Shown here: positions 9,131 through 49,411 of the stretch, in pieces | Layout: the number at the start of each line of letters is the position of its first letter | How positions within the stretch are numbered: position 1 is the first letter of the stretch | DNA from: an uncultured Carboxylicivirga sp. | GTDB lineage: Bacteria > Bacteroidota > Bacteroidia > Bacteroidales > Marinilabiliaceae | DNA length: 51,717 nt | NCBI GenBank assembly: GCA_947491945.1 | Contig: CANLLN010000032.1 | Location: 1-51,717 of the forward strand | Direction: 5' to 3' | The notes under the pieces: generated by a model | What the model was told of the DNA's origin: nothing | Database searches by the model: none | The model's input: only the letters and a program-made list of their open reading frames with translations | Made by a program: the position numbers and the translations under genes

Positions 9131-9140
9131 GTAATCTTTA

Positions 9141-10313: not shown

Positions 10314-10315
10314 TC

Positions 10316-31623: not shown

Positions 31624-32952
31624 TCAGAAATGAAGGTTTACCGTGGTTCCTTTTCCGTGTTCAGAGTGAATCTTAAGCTGCCCGCCATGCAGGCGCATCA
31701 CCTGCTGCGACAAGGCCAAGCCAATTCCACTTCCGCCGGGGCGGGTAGTGTAAAAAGGTATGCATACTTTGTCAAGCTCTTCCTTGGGAATGCCTTTACC
31801 ATTATCACAGATTGTTATTTGCAGCTTATTAGCTTTTTTATGGGCGTCAATGGAGATTAGTGCGGGATTTTTGTTTAGTGCTTCTATGCTGTTTTTTATC
31901 AGATTAATAAGTGCTTGCTCCAGCAACTTTTCATCGATTAAGTGGCTGATATTTTTGTTACAATTGATCGTTAGTGCAAACTTGTTTCCATTGCCCGTGT
32001 AAAGGGTGTGAATGCGCATCAATAAATCATGAATATTGCAGGGCGTTGTTTGCACACTTTTTAGGCGGGCCATGCTTCGGTAGCTCTCAACAAAGTTGGT
32101 AAGCCCTTTACTGCGTGTATGGATGGCATTCAAGCCCTCTATTAGTTCTGACCGTTCTTCATCGTCGATAACGACGGGTGTTTCAGATGCCAGGAAGCGT
32201 TCTCTTAATCCGGCCGATAGGATATTAATGGGGCTTAGTGAATTGATGACTTCATGCGTTAATACTCGAATGAGTTTTTGCCATGATTCCAGCTCTTTCT
32301 GTTCTATCTCGCTGCGAATATCCTGAAAAGCCAGTAAGCGAAGTGTCTTTCCTTCCTTCTTCATCAGCACAGCCGTGAGGGCTACTTGAAGCATGCGGTT
32401 GTCAACGATTAATTCGATGAGTATTTGCTGGTTGGGTTGTAGTTGCATCAGCTCATTGGCAAGGCCCGGCTTTAGCTTATCCAGCTTATCAAGGCGGTGC
32501 AGGTATTTGATATTTAGTAATCGTAACAAGGCATCGTTAGTCATGGTTACATTACCATGCTCATTAACCACAATAATGGCAACGCCTATCTGCTTCAGTG
32601 CCGTTTCAAAAAACAGGTATTCCTTTTCCTTATCGATTTTTAGTTGCCGGAAGGCTTTCACCACCTGGTTGAAGGCCTTGAATAATTCCTGAAAGGAAGT
32701 ATCCTTATCACGTGTATGAAAATGTATGGTGGTATCGCCAAAACCAAAGGATTCTATAAAACGGGCCAGTTCACGATTTGTCTTACGCACCGAGTAGATG
32801 AGACGTCCCACCTGAAAGAAGTAAGTTATCCCTAACAGATAAAGTAGTATATGTTGGTTTTTGAGGTGCCATACAAGTAGCATCAAAACAGGCGTTGTTG
32901 CCAATAAGGTTGCTTGCAGGATAATACCGAAGGAGAAGTGCTTATAGGTCAT
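31624..32952 (-). CDS. Sensor histidine kinase of the sigma-54 transporter locus
   Basis: A 442-residue membrane kinase. Two helices near residues 7-28 and 34-48 have almost no periplasmic loop between them, so the sensor probably reads a membrane or intracellular signal. A linker and a PAS-like domain (GVAIIVVNEHGNVTMTNDALLRLLN) follow, then the NtrB-like transmitter with phospho-acceptor His233 in RVLTHEVINSLSPI. ATP-binding boxes are NLIKNSIEAL (N), DNGKGIPKEEL (G1) and GSGIGLAL (G2). Its start overlaps the end of the regulator gene by 11 bp, making a regulator-kinase operon. The divergent sigma-54 promoter of the transporter operon makes that operon the probable target. Confidence 0.93.
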   Translation of the reverse strand: MTYKHFSFGIILQATLLATTPVLMLLVWHLKNQHILLYLLGITYFFQVGRLIYSVRKTNRELARFIESFGFGDTTIHFHTRDKDTSFQELFKAFNQVVKAFRQLKIDKEKEYLFFETALKQIGVAIIVVNEHGNVTMTNDALLRLLNIKYLHRLDKLDKLKPGLANELMQLQPNQQILIELIVDNRMLQVALTAVLMKKEGKTLRLLAFQDIRSEIEQKELESWQKLIRVLTHEVINSLSPINILSAGLRERFLASETPVVIDDEERSELIEGLNAIHTRSKGLTNFVESYRSMARLKSVQTTPCNIHDLLMRIHTLYTGNGNKFALTINCNKNISHLIDEKLLEQALINLIKNSIEALNKNPALISIDAHKKANKLQITICDNGKGIPKEELDKVCIPFYTTRPGGSGIGLALSQQVMRLHGGQLKIHSEHGKGTTVNLHF

Positions 32953-34309
32953 ACTTCTTGATTTTGTCGTAAAGGGTCGAACGGTTGATACCTAGTTTTT
33001 GCGCTGCCTTACTCATGTTACCTTTGCAGTTGGCAATGGCTTTTTCAATCAGCGCTCGCTCGTGCTCTGTTAAGTTAAAGCAGTTGGTGTCTGGTATTTT
33101 AGTATGGCACTTACTAAGGAAGAGATCCCTACTGTTGATCATTGATCCTTCTGACAGGATCACTGCCTTTTCGATAGCATGTTGCAACTCGCGGATGTTG
33201 CCCGGCCACGATTGCTCCTGTAAGGTCTCAATGGCCTGACGGGTTAGACTTAAGGACCCTTTGTTGTATTTATCGGCTTGTTTTTGGATGAAGTAGCTGG
33301 CTAATCCGCCAATGTCTTCCCTGCGATTACGAAGCGCCGGCAGCTCCATGGTGATGGTGTTGATGCGATAAAGCAGGTCTTCGCGAAACGTTCCTTCAGC
33401 TACCATTTGCTGCAGCGGCATGTTGGTGGCACATAACAGCCGGATGTCGACCTTAATGGGTCGGGTACCCCCCACGGGTGTGATTTCCCTGTTTTGCAGT
33501 GCTGCCAGAAGCTTTGCCTGGGCAGCCAACGACAGGTTGCCTATCTCATCCAGAAACAGGGTGCCTCCTGAGGCCACTTCAAATCGGCCGGTCCGGTCTG
33601 TTTTCGCATCGGTAAAAGCGCCCTTCTTATGGCCGAACAGTTCACTTTCAAACAGGTTCTCATGGATAGCGCCTAAATCAACGGCAACAAACATCTCTTC
33701 TTTCCGGGCTGAAAGGTGGTGGATGGTGCGGGCCATCACTTCCTTTCCGGTGCCGTTCTCGCCTAAGATAAGCACATTCACATCGGTTGGAGCTACCTTA
33801 TCAACCATGTTCATTATTTGTTGCATGGCTTCGGAGCGGCCAATAAACAGGTCCGTTTGATTGGCAATGGTTTCTTTGAGGTGCTTGTGTTTTTTCTTCA
33901 AGCGGTTGATGTCTCGCTTCGATTTCTGGAGTTCATACACAGCCCTAAGGGTTGAAAGGATTTTCTGTTCGTCCCACGATTTCTCAATAAAATCGGCGGC
34001 CCCATTTTTAATGGCCTTAACAGCCAGGGGCACATCGCTGTAGGCGGTAATGAGTACCACGGCCAGTTCAGGGTCGTACTTGTGAACCTCCTGCATCCAA
34101 AACAGCCCCTCATTGCCCGTGTTGATGCCTGCTTTGAAATTCATATCGAGCATTACAATGTCAAAAGCATTTTTGTTTAGGTGCTCAATAATTCGGTTCG
34201 GGTTATGCTCCGTAACTACCGTATTAAAATGCGGGTTGAGGTAGAGCTTGAGTGCAACCAGCAGCTCTTTATTGTCATCAACGATCAGTATTTGTCCTTC
34301 TTTGGGCAT
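32942..34309 (-). CDS. NtrC-family sigma-54-dependent response regulator
   Basis: A 455-residue activator with three domains. The receiver (residues 1-125) has ILIVDDN and phospho-acceptor Asp55. The AAA+ sigma-54 interaction domain (about 155-390) has Walker A GENGTGKEV, Walker B GGTLFLDEIG, the sigma-54 contact loop GAFTDA (a variant of GAFTGA) and the arginine-finger region REDLLYRI. The C-terminal Fis-type helix-turn-helix has KAAQKLGINRSTLYDKIKKYDL. Activators of this class bind upstream palindromes as oligomers and hydrolyse ATP to open sigma-54 promoters. The regulator and kinase genes form one minus-strand unit, facing away from the transporter operon. Confidence 0.95.
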   Translation of the reverse strand: MPKEGQILIVDDNKELLVALKLYLNPHFNTVVTEHNPNRIIEHLNKNAFDIVMLDMNFKAGINTGNEGLFWMQEVHKYDPELAVVLITAYSDVPLAVKAIKNGAADFIEKSWDEQKILSTLRAVYELQKSKRDINRLKKKHKHLKETIANQTDLFIGRSEAMQQIMNMVDKVAPTDVNVLILGENGTGKEVMARTIHHLSARKEEMFVAVDLGAIHENLFESELFGHKKGAFTDAKTDRTGRFEVASGGTLFLDEIGNLSLAAQAKLLAALQNREITPVGGTRPIKVDIRLLCATNMPLQQMVAEGTFREDLLYRINTITMELPALRNRREDIGGLASYFIQKQADKYNKGSLSLTRQAIETLQEQSWPGNIRELQHAIEKAVILSEGSMINSRDLFLSKCHTKIPDTNCFNLTEHERALIEKAIANCKGNMSKAAQKLGINRSTLYDKIKKYDL

Positions 34310-34350
34310 AGTGATTAAGGTTAGTTAATTTGTTGGATCGGGGGTAATAG

Positions 34351-34565
34351 CAATCCCCCTAATTCGTTCATATTAATGGTTTTTTTCATATTGCTCCCCC
34401 TTCTCCAAGAGGAAAATCGTTTTGTCTATTATTCTGTGTTCCCCTTTTTCATAGGAGAGATTTCTATTGTAATTGCTTTTGGTGTTTATTCTTTTAGGTT
34501 TTCCCCCCTTGGCGAAGGGGGCAGTATTTCTATGTTTTATCCGGTTTGTTAGTTCCGGGGGATTG
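34351..34565. repeat. Left copy of a palindromic repeat flanking the DUF559 gene
   Basis: Begins CAATCCCCCTAAT and ends CGGGGGATTGG, so its ends are inverted copies. Inside are CTTCTCCAAG..GG and CCCCCTTGGCGAAGGGGG, which can fold. It aligns in the same order and orientation with the block at 35036-35229. It starts 42 bp before the regulator start codon, so the regulator promoter must lie within or very near it. Together with a further GCAAGGGGGAA near 34618 it fills the 322-bp gap; no gene is seen in the gap. Confidence 0.75.
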
Positions 34566-34631
34566 GCGCATAATCGTTTCTTTTCTGTTAATAATATCCA
34601 GTACATCACTCCTTCTGCAAGGGGGAAGACT

Positions 34632-35003
34632 TTATAGATTCTCTTCTAGTTCTTCAATTGTTGCTGCTATAACGCGAATAACATTATTTAGGTTCTTTTT
34701 AATTTCGTATTCATCAATTCTTAATACATGATAACCCAGCGTATTTAATGTTCTATCTCTTAACTTATCTTTTTCAGTTTTGAATTGATGCGAATAGCCA
34801 TCTACTTCAATAATAAGTTTTAGTTTTCGACAAATAAAGTCAACGATGTATTTATCAATTGCGAATTGCCTGTTGAATTGATAACCATACATCTGTCGTG
34901 CCCTTAACACCTCTTTCCAAAGAATGATTTCACCATCAGTAGAGTTATTTCTTAGCTCTCTGGCAAAATGTTTAAACTTCTTATTGTAATGTGATTCGGG
35001 CAT
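34632..35003 (-). CDS. DUF559 (Vsr-like endonuclease-fold) protein
   Basis: A 123-residue protein of the DUF559 family, related to very-short-patch-repair endonucleases. It shows LRNNSTDGEIILWKEVLRARQ, YQFNRQF, then a PD-(D/E)xK-like core with Asp55 in YIVDFIC and Glu67-Val-Asp69 in LIIEVDGYSHQ, and ends with LGYHVLRIDEYEI. A single-strand or nicking activity is plausible by fold; the true function is not established for the family. It is tightly bracketed by two direct copies of a ~200-bp palindromic repeat and lies between a regulator and its likely target promoter, which suggests a mobile unit. Confidence 0.9.
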   Translation of the reverse strand: MPESHYNKKFKHFARELRNNSTDGEIILWKEVLRARQMYGYQFNRQFAIDKYIVDFICRKLKLIIEVDGYSHQFKTEKDKLRDRTLNTLGYHVLRIDEYEIKKNLNNVIRVIAATIEELEENL

Positions 35004-35035
35004 TTTTATTGTTTAAGGATTTGTTATACTTCAGG

Positions 35036-35229: not shown

Positions 35230-35267
35230 AAAAAATATCTAATTCCATCTACAAAATACTTCTTTAT

Positions 35268-35305
35268 TGTTGGAAATCCATACAGAGGTGTTGGAAAATC
35301 CGACA
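35268..35305 (+). promoter_or_regulatory. Tandem operator/UAS for the NtrC-type regulator
   Basis: Two similar palindromic sites: TGTTGGAAATCCATACA (35268-35284) and TGTTGGAAAATCCGACA (35289-35305). The second is TGTTGGA-aaa-TCCGACA with one mismatch between arms. Centres are 21 bp apart, two helical turns, and the pair lies about 55-90 bp upstream of the -24 element, the usual place for an enhancer bound by an NtrC-family activator. Confidence 0.6.
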
Positions 35306-35359
35306 CTGTTATAATGGTTGAAATTATTAAAACGCTGCAATTCAATATCTAATAGCTAA

Positions 35360-35373
35360 GGCACGACTTTGGC
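35360..35373 (+). promoter_or_regulatory. Sigma-54 (-24/-12) promoter of the transporter operon
   Basis: AGGCACGACTTTGGCA contains GG at 35360-35361 and GC at 35372-35373 with exactly 10 bp between, close to the consensus TGGCACG-N4-TTGC. Transcription would start near 35385, about 20 nt before the HlyD-type gene. The nearby NtrC-type gene strengthens the call. Confidence 0.8.
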
Positions 35374-35405
35374 ATAAGGCTCTAACCGAAGTCAAAGCAT
35401 ACAAT

Positions 35406-36656
35406 ATGGATAAGCAACTAAAAAAGAAACCCTGGTGGAAGAAGCATTTGAAATGGCTCATTGGTGGCGGCGTGTTCCTTTGCTGGAGCATTTACTTTAT
35501 TGCGTTTGCCGATCACCGGAGCCAGGTCAGGATAGATGCAAGCCGGGTGACTATTTCAAAGGTGGAACTCGATAATTTTCAGGATTACATTAGTGTAACC
35601 GCGACTGTTGAGCCCATCAAAACCATTTTTCTCGATGCCATCGAAGGGGGTCGGGTGGAAGGCATCTTACTGGAGGAAGGCAGCCTGGTGAAAGAGGGCG
35701 ATGCCATTGCTCAGCTTAGTAACACCAACCTGATTTTAGAGATTTCGAATAACGAGGCCAATGTGGCCCGCGCCATTAACGAACTGCGCACGGCTCGTTT
35801 GCAAATGGAAATGAATGCCATGACGATACAGAATCAGATTGTTCAGCTGGAGGGCGATTTGTTTATCCAGAAGCGAAAATACGACAATGCAACCGCTTTT
35901 TATAAGGAAGGCTTAATAGCGGAAGATGAATATTTACGTGATAAAACCAGCTACGAGGCATCGCAACGACAAATGAATCTGTTGCGGGAGAGTTTTAAGC
36001 GCGATTCCATTTATCGGGGCATCCAGATTCAGACGCTGGAGAATTCGGCAAAGCGCATGGAGCAGAACCAAGGCATCATTCGCCAGCGCCTGGATAACCT
36101 CACCATTAAAGCGCCGGTAACCGGTCAACTCGCAGCTCTTAACCTCGAGGAAGGGCAGGTCATTTCATATGGGACACGCATTGGAAAAGTGAATATACTC
36201 GATGAGTTTAAGCTCAAAGCTGAGGTGGATGAACATTATATCTCACGCACCCGGAAAGGTTTGAAGGCAAGGTGCCAGTTCCCCAACAGAACGATTGATG
36301 CGGAGGTGAGTAAAATCTATGCGGAAGTGAAGGATGGAAAATTTACGGTGGACCTGGAGTTTGATAATAGCAAGCGGCAGAATCTGCGTATTGGGCAAAC
36401 CAGCCATGTGAAACTGGAGTTGGGCAACTCTTCTAAAGCACTCTTATTGCCGCGTGGCAGCTTCTTTCAAAGCACAGGTGGACAATGGGTGTTTGTACTT
36501 AGTAAAGATGGGGCCACCGCCTATAAACGGCAGGTAAGCATTGGTCGTCAAAACCCGCGCTATTTTGAAGTGCTGGACGGCCTGGAGGTTGGAGAGGAAG
36601 TGATAACTTCGGGTTATGAGATTTTTGGTGATAACGAATTGGTAATTTTAAACTAG
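35406..36656 (+). CDS. HlyD/MacA-type periplasmic adaptor (membrane fusion protein)
   Basis: A 416-residue adaptor that links an inner-membrane ABC transporter to the outer membrane or substrate. One N-terminal anchor helix (about 14-33) is followed by a beta-barrel/lipoyl half (VEGILLEEGSLVKEGDAIAQL). A long coiled-coil hairpin spans about residues 110-230, and the second lipoyl half has TIKAPVTGQLAALNLEEGQVI. The C-terminal barrel includes GDNELVILN. It is the first gene of the sigma-54 operon and ends 6 bp before the first permease gene. A matching TolC-type outer-membrane factor is not in the window. Confidence 0.93.
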   Translation: MDKQLKKKPWWKKHLKWLIGGGVFLCWSIYFIAFADHRSQVRIDASRVTISKVELDNFQDYISVTATVEPIKTIFLDAIEGGRVEGILLEEGSLVKEGDAIAQLSNTNLILEISNNEANVARAINELRTARLQMEMNAMTIQNQIVQLEGDLFIQKRKYDNATAFYKEGLIAEDEYLRDKTSYEASQRQMNLLRESFKRDSIYRGIQIQTLENSAKRMEQNQGIIRQRLDNLTIKAPVTGQLAALNLEEGQVISYGTRIGKVNILDEFKLKAEVDEHYISRTRKGLKARCQFPNRTIDAEVSKIYAEVKDGKFTVDLEFDNSKRQNLRIGQTSHVKLELGNSSKALLLPRGSFFQSTGGQWVFVLSKDGATAYKRQVSIGRQNPRYFEVLDGLEVGEEVITSGYEIFGDNELVILN

Positions 36657-36662
36657 TAAAAG

Positions 36663-38957
36663 ATGACCAGATACCTAATCAAATCGGCTTTTCGCCATAT
36701 TATTCATCGCAAATACTTTAGCTTGCTTAATGTGCTTGGGTTTGCGATGGCCTTTGCTACCTCATTAATCATCTTCTTTTATGTCATTTACGAATACAGT
36801 TTCGACAATCATCACGAAAAGGCTGCCACGGTTTATCGTGTGGAAGTGGGCGACCAGGTGATTTATAAAGGGACAACCGCACAACTATTAAAGGACAAGA
36901 TTCCTGAGGTTAAGAATGCCAGTATACTATCGCCATATGCCGGTCGGGTGCTTGTGCATCCCACACAGCCGGACAATATGTATGCGGGTTCAGTCTTTCA
37001 GGCTGATTCGGCTATTACCGAGTTACTTACGTTTGATGTGCTGATTGGGGATTTGAATGCAGCATTTCTTGACAAAAGTAAAATAGCCATTGCTTCTGAA
37101 GCAGCCGTGCAACTCTTTGGCAGTACAAATGTGATTGGCGAAAGGATACTGGTTAACTATGGCAGGGAGCTGGAGGTATGTGCTGTTTACAAGTCGTTTC
37201 CTTCAAGCAGCACGTTTAGTCCGGTTGGGTTCATGAGTATCAAGCAAAACCCCACACGTTTTGACAGATCGGAGAGTAGTTTCCTCACCTTTTTAGAGAT
37301 TGAGCCCCAATTGGTAACCGATGAGCTAAGCCAGCGGATGGCCAATATTATCAATGAAGAATTTGATGATGAAGTAAGTATTCATTTGCGTGCGTTAAAG
37401 GACGTACATTTCGCCGAACAGGTAAATTATGAATATGCAGAAGTAACCAAACGCTCCACGGTTGACTTATTTTTATCAGTGGCTTTTCTCATACTAATTA
37501 TCAGTGTTATCAATTACTATAATTTTAAGTGTGGCATTATGCCTACCCGTGAAAAGAGCTTCTTTGTACAGGAGGTGAATGGGGCGCAACTAAAGCACAT
37601 TCGACTCACATTACTAATTGAAGGACTTATTATATGCACAGTGGCCGCGGCTTTAGCCTATTTATTAATTGAGTTATTTGATAGCTCAAGGCTATCAGAA
37701 TTGGTGCCTTTCAACTTAAAGGATTTCTCGTTAAGCATGCGGCTGCTGATGTTAGGCTGTATTGGAGTAGGAGCCGCAATTGTATCGGTTTTATTACCAA
37801 CAGGGTTCCGATTTGCCGACACCCTGATTGATAAATATAGCCGCTCATCTACTAAGCCGTTTATGAGCATGCGCGCTGTGCTGATGACCTTTCAGTTTGT
37901 GGCTTCACTGGTTTTAATTATTAGTTCGATAGTTATTTATCAGCAAAAGCAGTTTTTACTTAATTACAATACCGGCATTGTGAGTAATAATATCCTCACA
38001 TTTCCTCTGAGTGGAAAAATTAAGAATAACCTGGATGGTTTTACTTCAGAATTAAAGAGCGCGGCTCACATTACTGATGTGACGTATGCCGCTCATGGTC
38101 CTGCCAACGACATGATGGGTTGGGGAAGAACCATTGATGGGGTGCAGGCCTCGTTTTTTGTGTGGCCGGTAGCTGAGAATTTTCTGAGTTTTTTCGATGT
38201 AGACATTTTTAAAGGACGCGATTATTCCACCAACCTGATGGATAACAATAAGTTCATCTTTAATCAGGCGGCGATGAGCAAATATAACTGGGAACATAAG
38301 CTTAACAAGCCTTTCCCAACATTTGACGGAGCAGCAGATTTGATTGGCTTTTGCGAGAATTTTCATTACGCCTCCTTACACCATTCGGTTGATCCAATGG
38401 GTTTTTGGCTCAATCGGAAGAGATGCAACGTGGCATTTGTAAAGTACTCCGGAAGTCTGCCGCTTGTTTTAGAGCATATCGAGAGAAGTTTCAAAGCTAT
38501 TTCGCCCTATCACAGGTTTGATTATGGTTTTGTAGATGATACTTACCAAGCGTATTACAAGAGCGAGATGCGGCTGTTTAAACTCATTACTTTCTTCAGC
38601 TTTATTGCACTGCTAATTACGGCCATTGGCATTACGGGCTTGGTAACAATTATTACTCAACGGCATGTGAAGGAGATTGGAATTCGTAAAGTTAACGGGG
38701 CCCGTATTTATGATATTATACGGTTACTCAATCGGAAAATCACCTATACCATTGTCATTGCCTTTGTGCTTTCAGCCCCCTTGGTGTGGTACCTGATGGA
38801 ACTATGGATGAGCAATTTTACTGTACATGCCGCCATTAGATGGTATTACTTTTTGTTGGGTGGATTGGGTGTGTGGTTATTGGCAATGTTGATTACCCTT
38901 CGCCAGACCTGGAAGGCAGCATCTCAAAACCCCATAAAAGCACTGAGATATGAATAA
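36663..38957 (+). CDS. FtsX/MacB-type ABC permease, paralogue 1
   Basis: A 764-residue permease with two FtsX halves. There is an N-terminal membrane helix (about 20-42), a periplasmic MacB-like domain, three helices (about 280-375), another helix near 415, a second periplasmic domain, and a final three-helix bundle. Family signatures are VKEIGIRKVNGARIYDII before the last bundle and the end NPIKALRYE. The equivalent motif in the first half is weak (MPTREKSFFVQEVNGAQLKHIR). Transporters of this type mechanically drive lipoproteins, peptides or other substrates through the periplasm rather than importing solutes. It is translated right after the adaptor gene. Confidence 0.92.
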   Translation: MTRYLIKSAFRHIIHRKYFSLLNVLGFAMAFATSLIIFFYVIYEYSFDNHHEKAATVYRVEVGDQVIYKGTTAQLLKDKIPEVKNASILSPYAGRVLVHPTQPDNMYAGSVFQADSAITELLTFDVLIGDLNAAFLDKSKIAIASEAAVQLFGSTNVIGERILVNYGRELEVCAVYKSFPSSSTFSPVGFMSIKQNPTRFDRSESSFLTFLEIEPQLVTDELSQRMANIINEEFDDEVSIHLRALKDVHFAEQVNYEYAEVTKRSTVDLFLSVAFLILIISVINYYNFKCGIMPTREKSFFVQEVNGAQLKHIRLTLLIEGLIICTVAAALAYLLIELFDSSRLSELVPFNLKDFSLSMRLLMLGCIGVGAAIVSVLLPTGFRFADTLIDKYSRSSTKPFMSMRAVLMTFQFVASLVLIISSIVIYQQKQFLLNYNTGIVSNNILTFPLSGKIKNNLDGFTSELKSAAHITDVTYAAHGPANDMMGWGRTIDGVQASFFVWPVAENFLSFFDVDIFKGRDYSTNLMDNNKFIFNQAAMSKYNWEHKLNKPFPTFDGAADLIGFCENFHYASLHHSVDPMGFWLNRKRCNVAFVKYSGSLPLVLEHIERSFKAISPYHRFDYGFVDDTYQAYYKSEMRLFKLITFFSFIALLITAIGITGLVTIITQRHVKEIGIRKVNGARIYDIIRLLNRKITYTIVIAFVLSAPLVWYLMELWMSNFTVHAAIRWYYFLLGGLGVWLLAMLITLRQTWKAASQNPIKALRYE

Positions 38958-39734: not shown

Positions 39735-39792
39735 TTATAAGCAGAGTGCTCTTAAGCCATATTAATCGTCTTCAACCCTATACTTGTTTATT

Positions 39793-42156
39793 ATGGATAG
39801 TAATTACTTAAGTGCTTCGCTGAGGTTTTTCAAACGGAATCGACTATTTACCGGCATCAATATTTTGGGACTGTCTATTGCGCTGTCTGTTTCATTCTTA
39901 ATCCTTTTATATGTTATCAATGCGTATAGTTATAACAGGATTTTTGAAAATAAGAACCGGATTTATCGGGTACTAAACTATCATGAGGCTTTTGAATTTC
40001 AGGGAGCAGCAACGCCTTTTGTATTGGCCGATTACCTTCGGAACGATTTTACACAGTTTGAATCCATTGCGCGTACCAGAACCATCAGAAATTTTAAGCT
40101 TCAGAAGCATGGAGAGTGGGTGGATATCAACCGGGCAGTAGGAAGCGAATCGGCTATTTTCAGTATTTTTAGTATCGGAGTGGCGGGGAGCGTTGAGCAA
40201 GTGCTGGCAGATAAGCAGGCAATTGTGATATCAGAGCAGTTGGCCAGCCGGTTTTTTCCTGGTGAAGATCCCTTAGGCAAACTGCTTAAAAGTAAAATCA
40301 ATGGAGAGCAAGTAGCTTTTCAGGTAAAGGCTGTTTTCGAGGATCTGCCTGAGAATAGTACTTTTAAAGCCGATTGTTTTGTCAGCTCCCAATGGGCACT
40401 TAATGAGCTTAATAAGGCCTTTGGAGTCAATAATGCACATGAAGATTGGTCTTTTGATTTTTGGAATACCTGGTGTTTATTGCATGAGCATGGCGATACT
40501 TTAGCCGTAAACCGTTCTTTTAAAGAGTTGGAGGCAAAAGTGTTCAGCGATGAGAACAGATCAAACTTTTCGTTGCAGCATCTGACAGATATTTATCTTA
40601 ATTCGCCCCATGTAACAAATAATGGGATTGAAGGTAATGCAGCAACGATTCGCATCTTCCTCGCAATAGGCATGCTTGTAATAATTGTAGCTGCCTTTAA
40701 TTATATTATTCTATCTACTGCCATATTTAGCAACCGAGCTAAAGAAATTGGTGTCCGAAAAGCCAATGGAGCCAGCCAGCATGCAATCAGGCATCAGTTA
40801 CTACTTGAATCTGTTACCCTATCTTTTATGGTGTTACCGATGGCCATGCTTTTTGCATTGGTTGGAAAACCATATGCCGAACAGTTGTTTAGCTCAAATC
40901 TGTCTATTATACCAGGGAATGTGATCTACTATTGTCTATTGTACTTTTTATTGGTTTTAGCTATAGGGCTGGCCTCAGGCTTATATACAGCTGCCTATTT
41001 GTCTGGTTTGGAACCATTAAAGGTGCTTAATCGGTCTGTTAAAACCGGTTCTAAAAAGTACACCCTGCAAATGGTCTTGTTGTTGGTGCAATTGGTTATT
41101 TTCTGTGTGTTAATAACTGGCGCTATTGTTATCCGAGCTCAATACCAGTTTGCACTCAATAAAAACTTGGGATACAGTACTGACCAATTGCTTCAGATTC
41201 ATCTCGGAAGGGATTTCGACAAGTATGAGGTATTTATGCAAAGTATTCGTTCGATGCCTGAAGTCTTGTCGGCCGGAGGTTCTATGCATCCATTACCTAC
41301 TCAGCGTGTTAGTTCCTATTTATGGGAACACACGAAAAATAAGAACAAAAAAATAAAGATGGAAAGTCTGGCGGTTGATTATGACTTTATTGAAACCATG
41401 GGCTTAACAATGAACCAAGGAAGAAGTTTCTCGCGAGCGTTTGCGCAAGATAAAAAAGGAATGATACTGAATGAAACGGCTGTTCGCGAATTGGGTATGG
41501 AAAGACCTATAGGCTATGAGCACGAGTGTTACACAGTAATTGGCGTGGTTAAAGATTTTGATTTTTACTCCATCCATAAAGAGATTCCGCCTTTATCATT
41601 GGAGATGTTTGATAACTACTATTTCTATGCGACGGTAAAATATTTGCCAGGTTCACTTAATAAGCTTATACCATCTATTAAAGGGCTTTGGAATGAATTG
41701 TCACCCGATAGGCCACTCGATTGGCGTACCAATGACGAATACCTCGAACAAGTATACAGCGAAGAAAACAACTTAAGCACGATTGTTTCGGTTGCGGCGC
41801 TTTTGGCCATGCTCATCGCCGTTATGGGCTTAGTTGGGCTCACGATATTTATTACGCAGGCGCAAACAAAAGATATTGGGGTTAAGAAAGTATTTGGCTG
41901 TTCAAACCGGTCTGTTATCACAATGAATTTCCGCAAGTACCTGTTGTTAACCATCGTGTCCTTGTTTATTTCCATCCCTATCGTTATGCACGTCATGGGG
42001 CAGTGGCTTGAGGGCTTTGTTTATAAAATTGAGTTTCAATGGTGGATGTTTGGTTTATCGGGGTTAATAGCCTCCGTTATAACGCTGGCAGCCATAAGCT
42101 GGCAGAGCTGGCGGGCGGCAACCAGAAATCCGGTTGAAGCATTACGCTATGAATAA
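39793..42156 (+). CDS. FtsX/MacB-type ABC permease, paralogue 2
   Basis: About 787 residues with the same two-half layout. The N-terminal helix is NRLFTGINILGLSIALSVSFLILLYV. The first-half signature is AKEIGVRKANGASQHAIRHQ, the second-half signature TKDIGVKKVFGCSNRSV, and the end NPVEALRYE. The first periplasmic domain has the family's QAIVISEQLASRFFPGEDPLGK. The ATG at 39793 is preferred over the TTG three codons upstream. It lies 58 bp after the ATPase gene. Confidence 0.92.
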   Translation: MDSNYLSASLRFFKRNRLFTGINILGLSIALSVSFLILLYVINAYSYNRIFENKNRIYRVLNYHEAFEFQGAATPFVLADYLRNDFTQFESIARTRTIRNFKLQKHGEWVDINRAVGSESAIFSIFSIGVAGSVEQVLADKQAIVISEQLASRFFPGEDPLGKLLKSKINGEQVAFQVKAVFEDLPENSTFKADCFVSSQWALNELNKAFGVNNAHEDWSFDFWNTWCLLHEHGDTLAVNRSFKELEAKVFSDENRSNFSLQHLTDIYLNSPHVTNNGIEGNAATIRIFLAIGMLVIIVAAFNYIILSTAIFSNRAKEIGVRKANGASQHAIRHQLLLESVTLSFMVLPMAMLFALVGKPYAEQLFSSNLSIIPGNVIYYCLLYFLLVLAIGLASGLYTAAYLSGLEPLKVLNRSVKTGSKKYTLQMVLLLVQLVIFCVLITGAIVIRAQYQFALNKNLGYSTDQLLQIHLGRDFDKYEVFMQSIRSMPEVLSAGGSMHPLPTQRVSSYLWEHTKNKNKKIKMESLAVDYDFIETMGLTMNQGRSFSRAFAQDKKGMILNETAVRELGMERPIGYEHECYTVIGVVKDFDFYSIHKEIPPLSLEMFDNYYFYATVKYLPGSLNKLIPSIKGLWNELSPDRPLDWRTNDEYLEQVYSEENNLSTIVSVAALLAMLIAVMGLVGLTIFITQAQTKDIGVKKVFGCSNRSVITMNFRKYLLLTIVSLFISIPIVMHVMGQWLEGFVYKIEFQWWMFGLSGLIASVITLAAISWQSWRAATRNPVEALRYE

Positions 42157-42183
42157 ATATTGACAAGTAAAACCTGCCTAATT

Positions 42184-44523
42184 ATGTTTTATCATTATTT
42201 CCTAATCGCCTGGCGAAACCTGAAAAGAAAAAAAACCTTGTCATTTATTCACGTTTTATGCTTGTCTGTTGGTTTGTCTGGCTTTTTGTTGGTGGCTAAA
42301 TATGTGCAATACGAAACGAACTTTGATAAGTTTAATGTCAATTATCAGCATATCTATCGGGCCCAGACTTATGGAGAAGGCGACCGGACGGATGATTGGA
42401 ATCAGCTGCCCATTCCAGTAGCACAGTATCTTAAAGATAACATTCCGGAGCTTAAGGAAGCGTTTGTCTTGAGTCCGATTTGGGCTGAGTTTTTGTCGCC
42501 AGATACGCAAACGGTGTTTAAAGAGCTTGACGGCTGCTGGGCGCCTTCTGCTCTATTCGACATGTTTTCGTTTGAGCTTTTGCAGGGGGAGCCGCTTACG
42601 GTTTTGGAGGCTCCCAATGCCATCGTGTTAAGCGAGACCATGGCTGAAAAGTATTTTCCTGGCGAAAATGCGATGGGAAAAACAATTTACGATGGCCAAC
42701 AGAATGAATTGATGGTTACCGGCATTATGCGGGATTTGCCTGAACAGTCGCATATTAAAGCCGATTATTTTCGTTCTAATGTGTCAATCACTAGGGATTA
42801 TGGCGAAAACTGGTACAATTCATCATTTACTGTTTATGTGCAGCTGAACCCCCAAGCATCAGTCAGTTATATCAACCAGAAGATTGCAGATGTCATTACT
42901 CAACACGACGCTAATTCCAAACGTGTTTTGTACCTCAACCCATTAAGCACCTTGCACCTGAAAGAGAATCCTCGCGATGATCGGGGAGCAGTGGTATACA
43001 TGTTTTCAGGTTTGGGATTGATGATTCTGCTGCTGGCATGTGTGAGTTTCATGAACCTCACCACCGCTTTTTCGTCGTTGCGACAGGTAGAAATAGGCTT
43101 ACGAAAAAGCATTGGCAGCAGTCGAAAGAGCATAGCCATTCAGTTTTTAAGTGAAACCATGTTTATTGCGTTGGTGTCTTTTGTTTTGGCAGTGTTTATT
43201 GCCCATTTGGTTTTACCGGTTTTTAACTCAGTTGTGGATCGTCACATCGAGCTGGAGTTACTTACCGATTATGGTTTTACGTTATTTTTGCTTGGTGTGG
43301 TGTTCATCACCGGGGTATTGGCAGGAGCCTATCCGGCTTTTGTGGTATCTAACTATAAGCCGGTGCTTGTTCTGAAACGCAGCAATTGGGTTAAAAAGAA
43401 TCGCTTCAGTGCTTTGCAAGGCCTGGTTTATTTTCAGTTCGTTTTGTCGGTTATGTTAATTACCATCAGCCTTTGGATTTACAGGCAGGTGAACTATCTT
43501 ACTAGTAAAGATCTGGGATTTGATCAAACACAGCTTCTGCATTGTTCCCTGCCCGCACAAAAGAGTACTGTTTCGTATGCTGCTCTGCGCGATGAATTAC
43601 TGGCGCACCCCGGTATCGATAATATGACTATGTCCATCAATTCGCCCTTGCATTCCAACCGGGGTTCTCAAGTCATCCCCGAAGGCTGGTCAAAGGAAAA
43701 CTCTGTGTTTATGCGGTGGAATGCGGCTTGCTCCAACTACATCAACACCATGAATATGCAGTTAGTTGAAGGGCGTAATCTTTCGGACCAATTGGCCAAC
43801 GACCAGCAAGCTTGTCTGATAAACGAAACTGCCGCTCGTGCTTTTGGCTGGAAGCAGCCTATTGGCAAAAAGCTTGAAAAGGAAGGTATCTACACCGTTG
43901 TTGGAGTTATTAAAGACTTTCATATCGACGATGTACATAATCCAATAAAGCCTTATATGCTATTGTTAATTGAACAGGATCTATCTCAGGCTGTGGATTT
44001 AACGTTTAATATTCATCCTCAAACAACACAAAGCAGCCTTAATCACATTAACCAGGTATTGAAAAGGTACTTTACAGATCGTTTGTTTGCAGTTAACCAC
44101 TACGATGCCAATGTAAAACGTGTGGAGCTGCAAATATGGAGCAGTGCTAAAAATACGATCCTGTTTTTTACCGTTATGGCAGTTATTATTGCCGCAATGG
44201 GACTGTTTGGCCTCATCTACTATGCCGCACAAAGGCGGGTAAAAGAGATTGGTGTTCGAAAAGTGCAAGGGGCGAAAGGCTATCAGATATTCCCGCTGAT
44301 TACCCAAAAGTATATGCTAATGGCCTTGTCGGCGAATATCATTGTCTATCCTATAGCAATGCTTCTGAAGAATGCTATGCCCGGACAATTCAAGTATCAG
44401 TTTTCATTGCTTGATGTATGTATTGTTCTCTTTATATCTATTCTGATCACCTTAATATCCAGTGGCTACCAGGTAATAAGGGCAAGCCGCCTCAATCCGG
44501 TAGAAGCGTTGAGGTATGAGTAA
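42184..44523 (+). CDS. FtsX/MacB-type ABC permease, paralogue 3
   Basis: A 779-residue permease from the ATG at 42184 (MFYHYFLIAWRNLKRKK, the usual family start; the frame opens eight codons earlier with TTG). First-half signature QVEIGLRKSIGSSRKSIA, second-half VKEIGVRKVQGAKGYQIF, end NPVEALRYE. The first periplasmic domain has NAIVLSETMAEKYFPGENAMGK. It lies 27 bp after paralogue 2. Confidence 0.92.
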   Translation: MFYHYFLIAWRNLKRKKTLSFIHVLCLSVGLSGFLLVAKYVQYETNFDKFNVNYQHIYRAQTYGEGDRTDDWNQLPIPVAQYLKDNIPELKEAFVLSPIWAEFLSPDTQTVFKELDGCWAPSALFDMFSFELLQGEPLTVLEAPNAIVLSETMAEKYFPGENAMGKTIYDGQQNELMVTGIMRDLPEQSHIKADYFRSNVSITRDYGENWYNSSFTVYVQLNPQASVSYINQKIADVITQHDANSKRVLYLNPLSTLHLKENPRDDRGAVVYMFSGLGLMILLLACVSFMNLTTAFSSLRQVEIGLRKSIGSSRKSIAIQFLSETMFIALVSFVLAVFIAHLVLPVFNSVVDRHIELELLTDYGFTLFLLGVVFITGVLAGAYPAFVVSNYKPVLVLKRSNWVKKNRFSALQGLVYFQFVLSVMLITISLWIYRQVNYLTSKDLGFDQTQLLHCSLPAQKSTVSYAALRDELLAHPGIDNMTMSINSPLHSNRGSQVIPEGWSKENSVFMRWNAACSNYINTMNMQLVEGRNLSDQLANDQQACLINETAARAFGWKQPIGKKLEKEGIYTVVGVIKDFHIDDVHNPIKPYMLLLIEQDLSQAVDLTFNIHPQTTQSSLNHINQVLKRYFTDRLFAVNHYDANVKRVELQIWSSAKNTILFFTVMAVIIAAMGLFGLIYYAAQRRVKEIGVRKVQGAKGYQIFPLITQKYMLMALSANIIVYPIAMLLKNAMPGQFKYQFSLLDVCIVLFISILITLISSGYQVIRASRLNPVEALRYE

Positions 44524-44684: not shown

Positions 44685-47024
44685 ATGAATCATCTTTTTC
44701 TTTTTATACGGAAGTTTCTACAACAAAAAACCACAGCTTTCTTGAGCATAGGAAGTTTGTCATTAGGGTTAGCAGTTGCTTTATTGACTGGCTTATGGTG
44801 CATTAACGAATTCTCTTTCGATACTTTTCATCATCAGCCAGAAAATACTTATCGCATTATACGAAAAGGTTTTATTAATAATGAGTCCATTTCGATAGGA
44901 GCAGTTGGTGGACGCATGGGGTTAGAGATTATTGACAAAACCACCTCAATAGGTGAGATAACTCGAATCTATTCTACCTCAGATATTTTAACGGTTGGTC
45001 AGCATTGCGAGCAGGTAAATAATGTGTATGCCGCCGATAGTAATTATTACCGGATTCTTAATTTTCCCTTGAAAACAGGTGATTTTGCCAGTTTTGCCCA
45101 AAAACCAAATGCGATAATAATCAGCGAAGCATGGGCATTAAAGTATTTTCCAAACATTTCTCCCATTGGTGAAATTCTCAGTTATAAAGGAGAGCGCGAG
45201 GTGGTAGGCGTTATGAAGAATATGCCGGTCAACTCCTCGCTTAATATAGAAGCCATAGTTCGTATCGACGGCATCGATTATCTTAGAGATAATCAGTGGG
45301 GAGGGAACGATAAATTCATCACTTTTCTGACCCTTCAAAAGGGTGCCAATACTGCAGAGCTTGAAAAACTGATGACCAAGCATGCTTGTGAAATGTTCGA
45401 GCCTTATAAGGCTTTTGAACTTACTTTTCACCTTCAACCTATATTAGATATGCACTTAGGAGATCGCTTTCGTTTCGACTTTGTTCTTAGTCGCAGTAAA
45501 AATCAGGTGCTATCGTTTGGTTTGATGGCCATACTTGTACTTATAATAGCTTGTATCAATTTTGTTAATTTATTTATCTCTAGTTCAATTCTGAGCGCCA
45601 AAGCTGTAGGTATCAAAAAGACGCACGGAGCTAGTAAGTTTAGCCTTATGATGGAGTTTTTTGTTGAAACCTTAATTTATACCAGTATAGCTTCTATCAT
45701 TGCTATTCTTGCAGTTGAGCTGATATTACCTGGTTTTAGTAGCATCATTGGGTATAAATTAAGTTTACCATTGTCGTCCATTGATTTTTACATCTCCATC
45801 ATTGGGTTGATTCTAGTTGTTACCTTAATTGCCGGCTCTTTTCCGGCTATATATATGACACATTTTAATCCGCTTTTAACGCTTAAGGACCAGTTTAAAG
45901 GAAATAAAGTGTCGTTTATTCAAAAGAGTCTGGTGATATTTCAGGTAGGTGCTTCTATAGTTCTGTTAATTAGTTCTATTTCCATAAAGAAACAGATATC
46001 ATTTTTACAAAATATGGATTTGGGTTTTAATAAGGAAAATGTGCTGTATGTTCATATGGACCGATCTATGGGTACTAATTTTCAGCGGGTTTCTGATGAG
46101 TTGCTCTCACATCCTGACATCATTAGTGTGTCAGGAAAAAACTCCACGCCTCTGGAATGGCAATCCGGAACAACAGTGAGGCTTATGAATGCTCCCGAAA
46201 CTAAGTGTCTGATGGAGGTATGTGATGTGAAGCCCAATTATATAGACATGATGGAAATGCCTTTGATTGCTGGTAACAATCCGTTTGAGATCATTAATGA
46301 TTCGCTTAATTATTGTCTCATTAATGAGGAAGCTGCCAAGGTATTGGGGAAGCAAAATTTACTGGAACAGCGGCTAGATATTAAGTTTCATGGCACTTAC
46401 ATTGTTAAAGGGATTGTGCGAAATGCATATACAAAATCACTCCACCAAAATGTGGATCCGCAGGTGTATAAGCTTATGACTGAAGACCAGTATGGCGTTA
46501 TGCTGGTTAAGGTGAGCGGCAATCCGCGTAATGCGATACAACAAATTGGACAAATATGGAGGCGTGAAATACCAGACAAACCTTTTGAATATCATTTTTT
46601 AGATGATGACTATAACAGGTTGTACCGAGATGAAGAGGTTGCTGGACAAATTGCTACCTGGCTGATGCTAATTTCTTTTTTTATTACAATAGCCGGCTTG
46701 TTTGGGCTTGCAAGTTATGTAATTAGTCGGCGCACTAAGGAAGTTGGTTTAAGAAAAGTGAATGGAGCTACCGTTTTGGCAATTGTAACTAATCTTAATA
46801 GTAGGTTTATAAAATGGGTAGTCATTGCTTTTGTTATTGCGTGCCCTATTGCCTGGTATGCTATGGACAAATGGCTCGAAAACTTTGCCTATAAAACGAA
46901 CCTTAGCTGGGGGTTATTTGCTTTGGCGGGCGTGTTGGCTCTGATAATTGCTCTCATAACTGTTTCGGTTCAATCGTGGAAAGCTGCCAGTCGCAATCCG
47001 ATTGAAAGTTTGAGGTATGAGTAA
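44685..47024 (+). CDS. FtsX/MacB-type ABC permease, paralogue 4
   Basis: A 779-residue permease with the same layout. First-half signature AKAVGIKKTHGASKFSLM, second-half TKEVGLRKVNGATVLAIV, end NPIESLRYE. It follows the longest internal gap in the operon (161 bp), which contains TAAGTTTG at 44574-44581, a match to the -7 element, so an internal promoter is possible. Its last codons are nearly identical at DNA level to those of paralogue 5. Confidence 0.92.
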   Translation: MNHLFLFIRKFLQQKTTAFLSIGSLSLGLAVALLTGLWCINEFSFDTFHHQPENTYRIIRKGFINNESISIGAVGGRMGLEIIDKTTSIGEITRIYSTSDILTVGQHCEQVNNVYAADSNYYRILNFPLKTGDFASFAQKPNAIIISEAWALKYFPNISPIGEILSYKGEREVVGVMKNMPVNSSLNIEAIVRIDGIDYLRDNQWGGNDKFITFLTLQKGANTAELEKLMTKHACEMFEPYKAFELTFHLQPILDMHLGDRFRFDFVLSRSKNQVLSFGLMAILVLIIACINFVNLFISSSILSAKAVGIKKTHGASKFSLMMEFFVETLIYTSIASIIAILAVELILPGFSSIIGYKLSLPLSSIDFYISIIGLILVVTLIAGSFPAIYMTHFNPLLTLKDQFKGNKVSFIQKSLVIFQVGASIVLLISSISIKKQISFLQNMDLGFNKENVLYVHMDRSMGTNFQRVSDELLSHPDIISVSGKNSTPLEWQSGTTVRLMNAPETKCLMEVCDVKPNYIDMMEMPLIAGNNPFEIINDSLNYCLINEEAAKVLGKQNLLEQRLDIKFHGTYIVKGIVRNAYTKSLHQNVDPQVYKLMTEDQYGVMLVKVSGNPRNAIQQIGQIWRREIPDKPFEYHFLDDDYNRLYRDEEVAGQIATWLMLISFFITIAGLFGLASYVISRRTKEVGLRKVNGATVLAIVTNLNSRFIKWVVIAFVIACPIAWYAMDKWLENFAYKTNLSWGLFALAGVLALIIALITVSVQSWKAASRNPIESLRYE

Positions 47025-47050
47025 ACGTTTAACAATGATAATAATACGAT

Positions 47051-49411
47051 ATGGTTCGTTATAAAATTATTTTGCGTCAATTGTTACGTCATCCATCGAA
47101 TACGCTAATCCGCGTTGTATCGTTGGTAATAGGCTTAAGTGTTTCGCTACTTATATTTTTACAAATCGCCCACCAATTGAATTTCGATGATTTTCATCCG
47201 GATAAAGATCGCATGCATCGCATTGCGGTTGTGTGGAATAATAAAGGTGAAATTGATGATGGGCCGGTCATTATTGCCCCTTTGGCGCAGGCATTAGAGG
47301 AGAATATACCTGAAGTGGAAGAGTATGCTCTGATTCGGAAAGGATGGAACACCAGCTTTTATACCGAGGAAAAGAAGGCGATTAATGCGAAAGCCTTATA
47401 TGCAGATTCAACTTTTTTTTCCTTTTTCCATTTCCCCATTATTCAGCGTACCACCAATAACGAATTAACAAAGCCTTACCGGTTACTGATTTCGCAATCT
47501 ACTGCCAATAAGTTTTTTGGCGAAACTGATGCTTTAGGAAAAGTTATTTATGATACCAACCAGAAGCCTTTTCAGGTGGAAGGTATTTTTCAGGATGTGC
47601 CCGCCAACAGTCACCTTGATTTTGATATTGTTGTGTCTTTTGAAACCATTCGTGCCGAAGGTAAAATGTACACCGGTTGGGGAGGGGGCGACAGTTTTAA
47701 CGGCTACGTGAAACTGATTCCCGGAGCGAATGTTGCGTCTGTAGAAGAGCAAATACCTGATGTTATCGCAAAATATTACGATGCTACCGAAGATATCAAA
47801 GCAGGGCAAACCGAAACATTTTACTTACAACAGCTCAACGCAATTACAACAGCTCACGATACCTACAATACATTGGTCTTAAGTATTATGGGTGTTATTG
47901 GGATAATTATACTGCTGGTGTCCGTTTTAAACTATGTTTTACTCACACTAAGCTCTTTTCAAAAGCAGGTTTATAATCTAGGTATTCAACAATTCAGTGG
48001 GGCATCTAAAGCCGATATCGTAAAGATAATTATTAGAGAGCAGGTGCTAATGGTTATGGTTTCATCGGCTATTGTAGCGCTTATGATTAAGCCCATGCTG
48101 GTCATCTCTGCTGATGTTTGGGGGTGGTGCAGTTCCATTCTTTATAATCGGTATTCAATTGTTTTTACAATATTCATTTTAGGGTTTGTTTTACTATTGG
48201 CCATTGGCTTGCCATTGATCAGGCTTCAAAGAAAGCAATTCAGATTGGCCTTAGTCAAAAAAGGCTTTTCCAGAATGGAAGCATTAAGCAAGCGCATTTT
48301 GCTTGTTGGACAAATGGTGGGAGCCACCGTTTTGATGATTATTTTGTTTATGCTGATGAAGCAATTGCACTACATCGAAAGGATGCAGCTGGGATACACT
48401 ACCGCCAACCGGCTGTATGTGCAAGTGAGGGGCGTTCAGAATCATTTGAAGGCGCCAGTTTTGTTAGATCAATTACAAAAACTATCGTTTGTAGAGTCAG
48501 CTTCGGCATCGTCGCAACTATTAATGGGAGGCCTGAGTGGGAATAGTTTTAAACTTCCGGGCAATGAGGAGGATTATTGGATCAGTCGTTTCATGTTTGT
48601 GGATAAGCATTTTCATTCAACCATGGGAGTAAAATTGGTGAATGGGGAATACTTATCGGCATTTGACGATACGGAACCCAACGTGGTCATTATTAATCAG
48701 GCCCTGGCCCGGATGATGAATTGGGACCATCCGGTGGGGCAGGAGATTCAAAGTAATTTTTCAAATCAGACCTTTCGAATTGTAGGTGTAGTTGAAGATT
48801 GTGTCAAATCGGCGCATGTGCGCAAACAGCCAGCCATTTTTTATAAAATACCGCCCCAATCCCTCACTGATTATGCCAACTATATTTCTATCTGTTTGCA
48901 GCCGGGTACTTCAGCAGCTCAAATCAATCAAATTAAAGATTTATTGAAGACGGAAAGCAGTATGGTACCTATGCAGCTTCAATTTTACGATACTAAAGTG
49001 GCTAATTACTACCGTACCGAGCGACGGCTTAAAAGGGCTATTATGGTATTTGCGGGCTTGGCCATGTTTTTAGCCCTCATTGGTTTGGCTGGTTTTGTGT
49101 TGAACGAGGTGCAATATCGAACTAAGGAAATTGGCATTCGAAAAGTTAATGGGGCCACTATTTCAGAAGTTTTGATAATGCTAAATCAGGATTTTACCCG
49201 GTGGGTTGTTCTGGCAATTCTCATCGCCTGTCCTTTGGGGTATTTTATGGTTGAACAGGCATTTCGGTTTTATGCCTACAAAACCGAACTCAGCTGGTGG
49301 ATTTTTGTCTTGGCGGGAATGGTATCCTTAGGCATGGCTCTGCTCACTGTTTCGGTTCAATCGTGGAAAGCCGCCAGACGAAATCCGGTTGAGTCGCTTA
49401 GGTATGAGTAG
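47051..49411 (+). CDS. FtsX/MacB-type ABC permease, paralogue 5
   Basis: A 786-residue permease and the last gene of the operon. The first-half signature is degenerate (VYNLGIQQFSGASKADIV, missing the usual acidic and basic pair). The second half is intact (TKEIGIRKVNGATISEVL), and the end is NPVESLRYE. The first periplasmic domain keeps YRLLISQSTANKFFGETDALGK. It follows paralogue 4 by 26 bp. No clear terminator is seen downstream, where the palindromic repeat block begins. Confidence 0.92.
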   Translation: MVRYKIILRQLLRHPSNTLIRVVSLVIGLSVSLLIFLQIAHQLNFDDFHPDKDRMHRIAVVWNNKGEIDDGPVIIAPLAQALEENIPEVEEYALIRKGWNTSFYTEEKKAINAKALYADSTFFSFFHFPIIQRTTNNELTKPYRLLISQSTANKFFGETDALGKVIYDTNQKPFQVEGIFQDVPANSHLDFDIVVSFETIRAEGKMYTGWGGGDSFNGYVKLIPGANVASVEEQIPDVIAKYYDATEDIKAGQTETFYLQQLNAITTAHDTYNTLVLSIMGVIGIIILLVSVLNYVLLTLSSFQKQVYNLGIQQFSGASKADIVKIIIREQVLMVMVSSAIVALMIKPMLVISADVWGWCSSILYNRYSIVFTIFILGFVLLLAIGLPLIRLQRKQFRLALVKKGFSRMEALSKRILLVGQMVGATVLMIILFMLMKQLHYIERMQLGYTTANRLYVQVRGVQNHLKAPVLLDQLQKLSFVESASASSQLLMGGLSGNSFKLPGNEEDYWISRFMFVDKHFHSTMGVKLVNGEYLSAFDDTEPNVVIINQALARMMNWDHPVGQEIQSNFSNQTFRIVGVVEDCVKSAHVRKQPAIFYKIPPQSLTDYANYISICLQPGTSAAQINQIKDLLKTESSMVPMQLQFYDTKVANYYRTERRLKRAIMVFAGLAMFLALIGLAGFVLNEVQYRTKEIGIRKVNGATISEVLIMLNQDFTRWVVLAILIACPLGYFMVEQAFRFYAYKTELSWWIFVLAGMVSLGMALLTVSVQSWKAARRNPVESLRYE

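Follow-up and report, generated by a model that had tools for sequence, protein, structure and literature searches.

A putatively sigma-54-controlled array of five double FtsX permeases with one adaptor and one ATPase in Carboxylicivirga: a probable shared-engine exporter

The DNA considered here (the window, 51,717 nucleotides; contig CANLLN010000032.1, or C32, of assembly GCA_947491945.1) comes from an uncultured member of the genus Carboxylicivirga, in the Bacteroidota, and holds a transporter array in which one HlyD/MacA-like adaptor and one ATPase are encoded together with five FtsX-type permeases. A sensor histidine kinase and an NtrC-type response regulator lie on the minus strand; the transporter genes lie on the plus strand in the order adaptor, permease 1, ATPase, permeases 2 to 5 (Table 1). 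This layout, with all frames open over 31624-49411, is that of a first-pass annotation made from the letters alone, and it stands with one addition, a DUF559 gene between regulator and promoter that had gone unmentioned. The annotation's assignment of one adaptor and one ATPase to five permeases likewise holds as gene content; that the permeases share the ATPase is our interpretation of it.

Table 1. Features of the array and its control region, in window positions. Orthologue groups of permeases are those formed at 45% identity within the genus. The TTG starts of permeases 2 and 3 follow from choosing the longest open reading frame; in-frame ATGs lie 3 and 8 codons downstream.
Feature	Position	Strand	Basis or remark
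Sensor histidine kinase	31624..32952	-	Pfam HATPase_c 2e-23; PAS 5.9e-4, below PAS cut-off
NtrC-type response regulator	32942..34309	-	Response_reg, Sigma54_activat, HTH_8 (Fis), all above Pfam cut-off
DUF559 gene	34632..35003	-	Pfam DUF559 5.6e-33; between regulator and promoter; flanking repeats
First operator, imperfect palindrome TGTTGGAAATCCATACA	35268..35284	+	21 nt upstream of second operator in 11/11 genus arrays
Second operator, palindrome TGTTGGAAAATCCGACA	35289..35305	+	Sole own-genome match at <=1 mismatch
Sigma-54 type -24/-12 promoter AGGCACGACTTTGGCA	35359..35374	+	10/12 consensus positions; conserved in genus
HlyD/MacA-like periplasmic adaptor	35406..36656	+	HlyD_3 1.3e-15; NCBIfam DarC 196.6 bits (cut-off 450)
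Double FtsX permease 1, group C	36663..38957	+	Pfam, sequence comparison
ATPase type 1, DarD/LolD/MacB-like, proposed shared engine	39033..39734	+	DarD model 293.7 bits (cut-off 375)
Double FtsX permease 2, group G	39784..42156	+	Pfam, sequence comparison
Double FtsX permease 3, group A	42160..44523	+	Pfam, sequence comparison
Double FtsX permease 4, group D, structure modelled	44685..47024	+	Pfam, sequence comparison, model
C-terminal coupling module of permease 4, residues 684-779	46734..47021	+	Major coupling helix, TM7, TM8, minor coupling helix
Double FtsX permease 5, without orthologue at >=45% among genus permeases compared	47051..49411	+	Pfam, sequence comparison
C-terminal coupling module of permease 5	49121..49408	+	Tail comparison with permease 4

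The five permeases are 24-29% identical in pairs over 739-761 aligned residues, and each is a fused double with two MacB/FtsX halves. A structural model of permease 4 has 8 transmembrane helices, two external domains and no linkers, and is YbbP/MacB-like; the helices of its C-terminal module span residues 684-692, 697-731, 742-768 and 772-778. Pfam and the model agree in giving the permeases a MacB-type transmembrane and periplasmic fold. Pfam found no ATPase domain in any of the five; the ATPase is a separate gene. The annotation had suggested that the permeases combine as hetero-dimers. We rejected such pairing on the evidence of sequence, the permease 4 model and fold comparison: every permease already contains both halves of a MacB-type dimer, so that pairing between permeases is unnecessary.

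The regulator joins a receiver to an AAA+ sigma-54 activator domain and a Fis helix-turn-helix, and a -24/-12 promoter with upstream operators is found at its target in the genus arrays. The single two-component sigma-54 circuit that had been proposed is thus supported by domains and by conserved promoter and operators, which also argue against an operon independent of sigma-54. In all 11 Carboxylicivirga arrays a -24/-12 site follows a pair of operators spaced 21 nt apart, with slight variation (a -12 part of TTGGAT in genome G003; a spacer one base longer in G001 and G002), and a twelfth locus tried, from another genus (G022), gave no match to the operator and promoter expressions. Of 107 upstream regions across the family, 36 reach 9 of the 12 sigma-54 consensus positions, against 2.4 expected from shuffled sequence, and 15 reach 10 of 12, against 0.3; 71 stay below 9. 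The activator loop of the window regulator, at residue 230, reads GAFTDA where GAFTGA is typical of NtrC proteins. Since 86 of 89 family regulators carry GAFTDA (71) or GSFTDA (15), the others having GSFTGA, GSFTNA or no match (one each), the variant is conserved across the family and is by itself no argument against sigma-54. These sets of 107 regions and 89 regulators include four loci known to be double-counted. The window's own genome has one rpoN match. A link between sigma-54 and FtsX permeases is not in itself new, as a published computational survey already reports sigma-54 enrichment at COG0577 permeases in Bacteroidia (PMC12316311).

How far the circuit reaches can be judged in part from the operator. 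At up to one mismatch the pattern matches the window's genome once, at this promoter; a reversed control pattern also matches once, so the operator's rarity in one genome proves little, and at that count no wider regulon is seen there. Exact matches number 15 across 14 genomes, in 11 of them: 14 of the matches adjoin array genes or fall on a short contig that carries permease genes, one (contig C32 of G004) lies beside none of the modelled genes, and none occurs in the three genomes without the adaptor. With one mismatch allowed, counts are not clearly above control in most of the 14. Read by eye, the operator pair and a -24/-12-like sequence recur inside the long arrays of G001, G002 and G004. 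At four loci of other genera (L053, L055, L059, L061), intergenic regions, also read by eye, carry repeats of the type TGTAAA/TTTACA, not TGTTGGA/TCCAACA, and because the repeat type differs the regulator's site may have changed between clades.

Hydropathy gives the window kinase two N-terminal peaks, at residues 10-26 and 35-51, with a very short gap between them; its H-box lies near residue 233, its N-box at 350 and its G-box at 383. Kinases of the family mostly follow the same plan, in which a short gap separates two hydrophobic stretches and an external domain is absent; those of a gut-locus group and a few others have one hydrophobic stretch only. BceS is a membrane kinase with a short loop, and the resemblance suggests that the kinase senses within the membrane or via a partner.

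Within the genus, a nearly constant set of genes accompanies a changing set of permeases. The adaptor family is sharply bounded: among 40 genomes searched, the window's included, there are 28 matches at 32% identity or more and E<=3e-81, the next match falling at 7e-20. It is found in 10 of 13 other genus members, and the adaptor of Carboxylicivirga sp. A043 (L082) is 82% identical to that of the window. Ten genus arrays could be read to the next unrelated gene or far beyond (an eleventh, in G013, is cut by its contig), and every one has one adaptor, one kinase and one regulator, with 1-3 ATPases and 3, 4, 4, 4, 5, 5, 5, 5, 10 and 10 permeases. A type-1 ATPase occurs in all ten, with 86-98% identity among the 13 copies compared; across the genus the adaptor is 76-93% and the kinase 55-77% identical to the window's. 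The 55 permeases fall into 28 groups at 45% identity, reshuffled in order and content. Across kinase, regulator, adaptor and the first permease, G001 and G002 are about 96% identical, yet they carry 5 and 10 permeases, respectively, and have three groups in common. Relative to G012, G010 has lost one permease and keeps roughly its last 92 bp (some 30 codons) as a remnant; among the loci searched, such remnants were found solely in G010 and, with nine residues, in L121, and none was found in the window's gaps. As far as gene sequences record it, these comparisons show permeases being exchanged as cassettes while engine and regulation stay. Some arrays have extra genes between their permeases, encoding DUF4933, a PD40 beta-propeller and an S41 peptidase (L044 14245-15750, L045 4469-5695, L046 9707-11077).

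An array of this kind could also be an ordinary tandem expansion, in which near-redundant pumps of MacAB or Dar type are kept for dosage with no division of substrates. One fold and one circuit are common to all members, and arrays gain and lose members freely, as such an expansion would have it. Identity within arrays is nevertheless mostly 21-29% (the maxima are 77% in G004, 45% in G002 and 40% in G001), unlike that of recent dosage copies, and the fast turnover looks more like changing substrates; we consider dosage an unlikely explanation.

Adaptor and double permease also go together well outside the genus. We surveyed 296 Bacteroidia genomes of at least 90% completeness (adaptor at E<=1e-40, double permease at E<=1e-45, both searches being taken to cover the same genomes). 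The adaptor occurs in 54, the window's own included, and a double-permease match in 61, that is, in all 54 genomes with the adaptor versus 7 of the 242 without it. Of these seven, G208, G221 and G243 have half-size frames; G108 and G194, which we had considered as carriers of broken permeases, proved from the fetched DNA to have adjacent half-size genes; G196 has a double permease accompanied by a kinase, a regulator and an ATPase of its own; and G079 has a lone double permease on a 7.3 kb contig. We collected 144 adaptor loci, some of which may represent one organism twice. Although many are cut by contig ends, the family regulator is present in 116 and the kinase in 110. Among the 61 loci that could be read completely, 16 have the ATPase without an adjacent permease and 35 have both genes, and permeases outnumber ATPases in 20 of these 35. 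The annotation's expectation that the same layout recurs in other Bacteroidota is borne out; the relatives include the gut genera Odoribacter and Phocaeicola. A TolC-like gene adjoins the adaptor in many relatives, and the 3 examined of 3 were OEP proteins; the window's array contains no TolC partner, the rest of its genome not having been searched for one.

Two related arrangements came to light. At L066 (4542-10759, contig C21 of the window's genome) a kinase, an NtrC-type regulator, an ATPase and one double permease form a set without adaptor, and a similar set occurs in G196 (L245); this is possibly a simpler relative or a sensing version. L247 (787-10830) and L246 hold arrays of half-size permeases with an ATPase, a TolC-like gene and an NtrC-type regulator, L247 having an adaptor as well, and with several half-permeases per ATPase they are perhaps an unfused form of the same design.

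Genome G053 bears on the sharing of an ATPase. Its full-length double permeases number 21, spread over 15 fetched stretches (two of which overlap), and two more are split; no ATPase match stands beside the double permeases in any of the 15, and its adaptor-ATPase locus (L185) has no permease within the 20 kb read. The whole genome contains seven LolD/MacB-type ATPases at E<=1e-40, so that some sharing is needed if all 21 permeases are ATP-driven. The competing view is that such ATPases elsewhere in a genome drive each permease in trans and that the array just co-regulates. The seven of G053 lend it some support, as do four further ATPases of this type in the window's genome, each above 190 bits on the same model. 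That genome has six double permeases, five in the array and one on C21, where an adjoining ATPase (C21:31651) is its own; two other ATPases, C21:78778 and C4:201242, adjoin half-size permeases. The neighbours of these three ATPases speak against drive in trans, and in the sampled genomes the presence of double permeases follows that of the adaptor almost without exception. Drive in trans seems rather unlikely to us, and the annotation's own counter-case, in which each permease has an ATPase elsewhere, is disfavoured, even though the sixth permease does have one and the four other ATPases remain.

A further indication comes from the C termini of the permeases. In some arrays the last ~96 codons are near-identical between permeases whose bodies share about a quarter of their residues; this tail extends from the coupling helix of the C-terminal half to the stop (residues 684-779 of permease 4). 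Of the 66 arrays with two or more permeases, 65 have a higher mean identity in the tail than in the body. For non-orthologous pairs in the ten genus arrays, tails are 52% identical in amino acids within an array (150 pairs) versus 44% between arrays (1282 pairs), and bodies are 21% identical in either case; the tail excess was reached in 0 of 300 label shuffles. Tails are near-identical in permeases p3-p6 of G002 (p7 and p8 being close) and p3-p8 of G004. Profiles of nine pairs show DNA identity falling ~90-98 codons before the stop, a drop that is abrupt in those from G002 and G004. Beyond the stop, 6 of the 8 genes inspected differ in sequence, p3 and p5 of G004 continuing alike. At identical residues, p3 and p4 of G002 agree in codon at 74 of 88 tail positions and at 56 of 133 body positions. 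Because synonymous positions agree too and the DNA borders are sharp, we infer that the tail identity arose by recombination and not by selection alone. The C21 permease with its own ATPase lacks tail similarity (15-26%), and the single permease at a second adaptor locus of G004 shares 35-54% tail identity with the main array of that genome. Tail class does not track ATPase type: the common tail is seen in G002, which has types 1 and 2, and in G004, which has type 1 only. The ATPase would dock through this tail, and sharing it should keep permeases compatible with one engine.

Taken together, gene content, co-occurrence and sequence lead us to think it probable, with appreciable room for doubt, that the array encodes a shared-engine tripartite exporter with swappable permeases, in which regulator, adaptor and ATPase would be the fixed engine. 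Several observations weigh against this conclusion. The co-occurrence of adaptor and permease (Fisher's test, 6e-52) is uncorrected for shared ancestry. Seven complete loci have the adaptor with neither gene nearby and three have a permease without a nearby ATPase; where both genes are present, their numbers are equal in 14 of 35 loci and ATPases are in excess in one. Four of the ten genus arrays also encode an ATPase of a second type (44-51% identity with type 1), one genus array has three type-1 copies, and the four further ATPases of the window's genome count here as well. At L216 of G053 (1569-12100), another NtrC-type regulator and kinase immediately precede three double permeases, and neither an ATPase nor an adaptor accompanies them; with a separate kinase-regulator pair at this locus, some permeases may lie outside the circuit described here, and a second circuit may control part of the G053 pool. 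As for the tail, pairs with tail DNA identity of at least 70% and body identity below 35% are confined to 7 of 66 arrays, Labilibaculum (L126) and Puteibacter (L120) among them, and body codon identity is likewise above all 300 shuffles, by 0.014. In the window, permeases 4 and 5 have tails 57% identical in amino acids (body 21%), and the other nine pairs are weakly alike (30-44%). In G010, permeases of groups A, B and C sit with one ATPase although each group has a tail of its own, and the tails of G053 are diverse, so identical tails are not required for sharing.

The mechanism we envisage is as follows. The membrane-embedded kinase, almost without an external part, would phosphorylate the NtrC-type regulator, which, to judge from the conserved DNA, should bind the two operators ~55-90 bp upstream of the sigma-54 promoter and so switch on adaptor, ATPase and permeases together. 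Fold and gene content are consistent with each permease acting as a self-contained pseudo-dimer that docks two copies of one ATPase via its coupling helices, the common adaptor and an outer-membrane TolC protein completing the conduit. Permeases are swapped as cassettes, with engine and regulation retained, and in some arrays recombination would homogenise the ATPase-docking tail and thereby preserve compatibility with one engine, while different permeases would cover different substrates. The chances are roughly even that the job is to expel envelope-active compounds such as antimicrobial peptides, an idea favoured by kinship with MacAB and BceAB, an inducible circuit and fast turnover; it is the weakest part of our reading.

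Several known systems share parts of this design. MacAB-TolC has the same FtsX/MacB periplasmic core and transmembrane fold, a MacA-like adaptor, and TolC, which is encoded in the operons of relatives of our array. MacB works as a homodimer with ATPase and permease in one chain (PMC5985334); in our array a separate gene encodes the ATPase, and one chassis is combined with several permeases, each a fused double. In the E. coli YbbAP-TesA system, YbbP spans the membrane with 10 helices, includes a linker pair and partners TesA, whereas our model has 8 helices and no linkers, and the locus has an adaptor gene and several permeases. LolCDE uses two different half-size permeases per LolD in place of double permeases, and the LolD model scores 228.7 bits here (cut-off 307.75). 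The best NCBIfam model for all five permeases is that of the acidobacterial duplicated orphan permeases (ADOP, TIGR03434), at a best score of 294.9 bits against a cut-off of 622.3, which was exceeded in none of the 296 Bacteroidia genomes. The trait in the family's name, a double permease without its own ATPase, is shown by the five window permeases with their one ATPase and by G053; the difference is that here we propose an adaptor-ATPase-kinase chassis as the missing partner. Among the proteins of named systems the nearest are DarB, DarC and DarD, all scoring below curated cut-offs, in keeping with the annotation's remark that no substrate is defined.

The darobactin exporter DarBCD resembles the array in its separate ATPase, DarB-like permease and HlyD adaptor, and all three have NCBIfam matches here; DarC and DarD are the best matches of adaptor and ATPase, and DarB is second to ADOP for the permeases. 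The known darobactin exporter has one permease and accompanies a biosynthetic cluster. That the array exports a self-made peptide in this manner is nonetheless very improbable: equivalog cut-offs are missed by all three (Table 1 for DarC and DarD; DarB at most 109.7 of 700 bits), and five flanking proteins scanned in the window (PBP, HD, nucleotidyltransferase, Y1 transposase and beta-lactamase fold) include no recognised peptide-maturing enzyme, small open reading frames not having been searched for precursors. The genes of the last two, the transposase being IS200-like, lie directly behind the array (49769-51700), where the contig ends. The DUF559 gene at its other side is probably an insertion outside the export system. 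The hairpin CCCCCTTGGCGAAGGGGG flanks it as direct copies at 34504-34521 and 35169-35186, with three further exact copies on contig C24 of the same genome, and the stretch 34504-35186 resembles a mobile DUF559 element that lies between the regulator and the operators.

Kinship with BceRS-BceAB raises another possibility, that some permeases are detectors for the kinase, as BceB is for BceS, besides or instead of pumping, which would be partly compatible with a shared engine. In both systems a short-loop kinase with two membrane stretches and almost no external part, here by hydropathy only, stands beside an FtsX-type transporter, and BceB is among the folds closest to the permease 4 model. BceB itself is built of ten helices with a single large external domain (PMC5985334). 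The array differs in the eight helices and two external domains of that model and in an NtrC-type regulator with sigma-54. Against a detector role, the kinase stays while permease identity changes between species, and such a role strikes us as decidedly unlikely. A likeness in logic only is offered by group II ECF transporters, importers built of unrelated proteins, in which many interchangeable membrane subunits use one common energising module.

Our best reading is that the exporter is a variant of the type VII ABC tripartite exporters not described before; in the titles and abstract openings of the open-access literature we found no description of the array or of its shared tail. More tentatively, and with somewhat less than an even chance of being right, we suggest that it exemplifies a modular export platform of the Bacteroidota, in which one kinase-controlled adaptor-ATPase engine powers a pool of interchangeable double permeases, arrayed or scattered, with tail-copying keeping them compatible in some lineages. 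Such a platform would be the export counterpart of group II ECF transporters and the missing engine of orphan duplicated permeases.

Annotations of some Bacteroidota list dozens of double FtsX permeases to which no ATPase, signal or substrate is assigned; 28 and 33 orphan permeases of unknown function are reported for two Dyadobacter genomes (PMC11573002). That double permeases almost always occur together with one adaptor family, at whose locus an ATPase and usually a kinase-regulator pair are encoded, gives them a concrete partner, and a shared motor of this kind could explain many orphan permeases of the phylum. The docking tail, near-identical between permeases of some arrays, would offer an uncommon example of concerted evolution restricted to a single functional module within a membrane protein. 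If the shared engine is real, a single deletion would disable many exporters at once, and the permease content of each species would be a readable record of the compounds it has had to expel. Since the relatives include Odoribacter and Phocaeicola, the system may also bear on peptide and drug tolerance in the gut.

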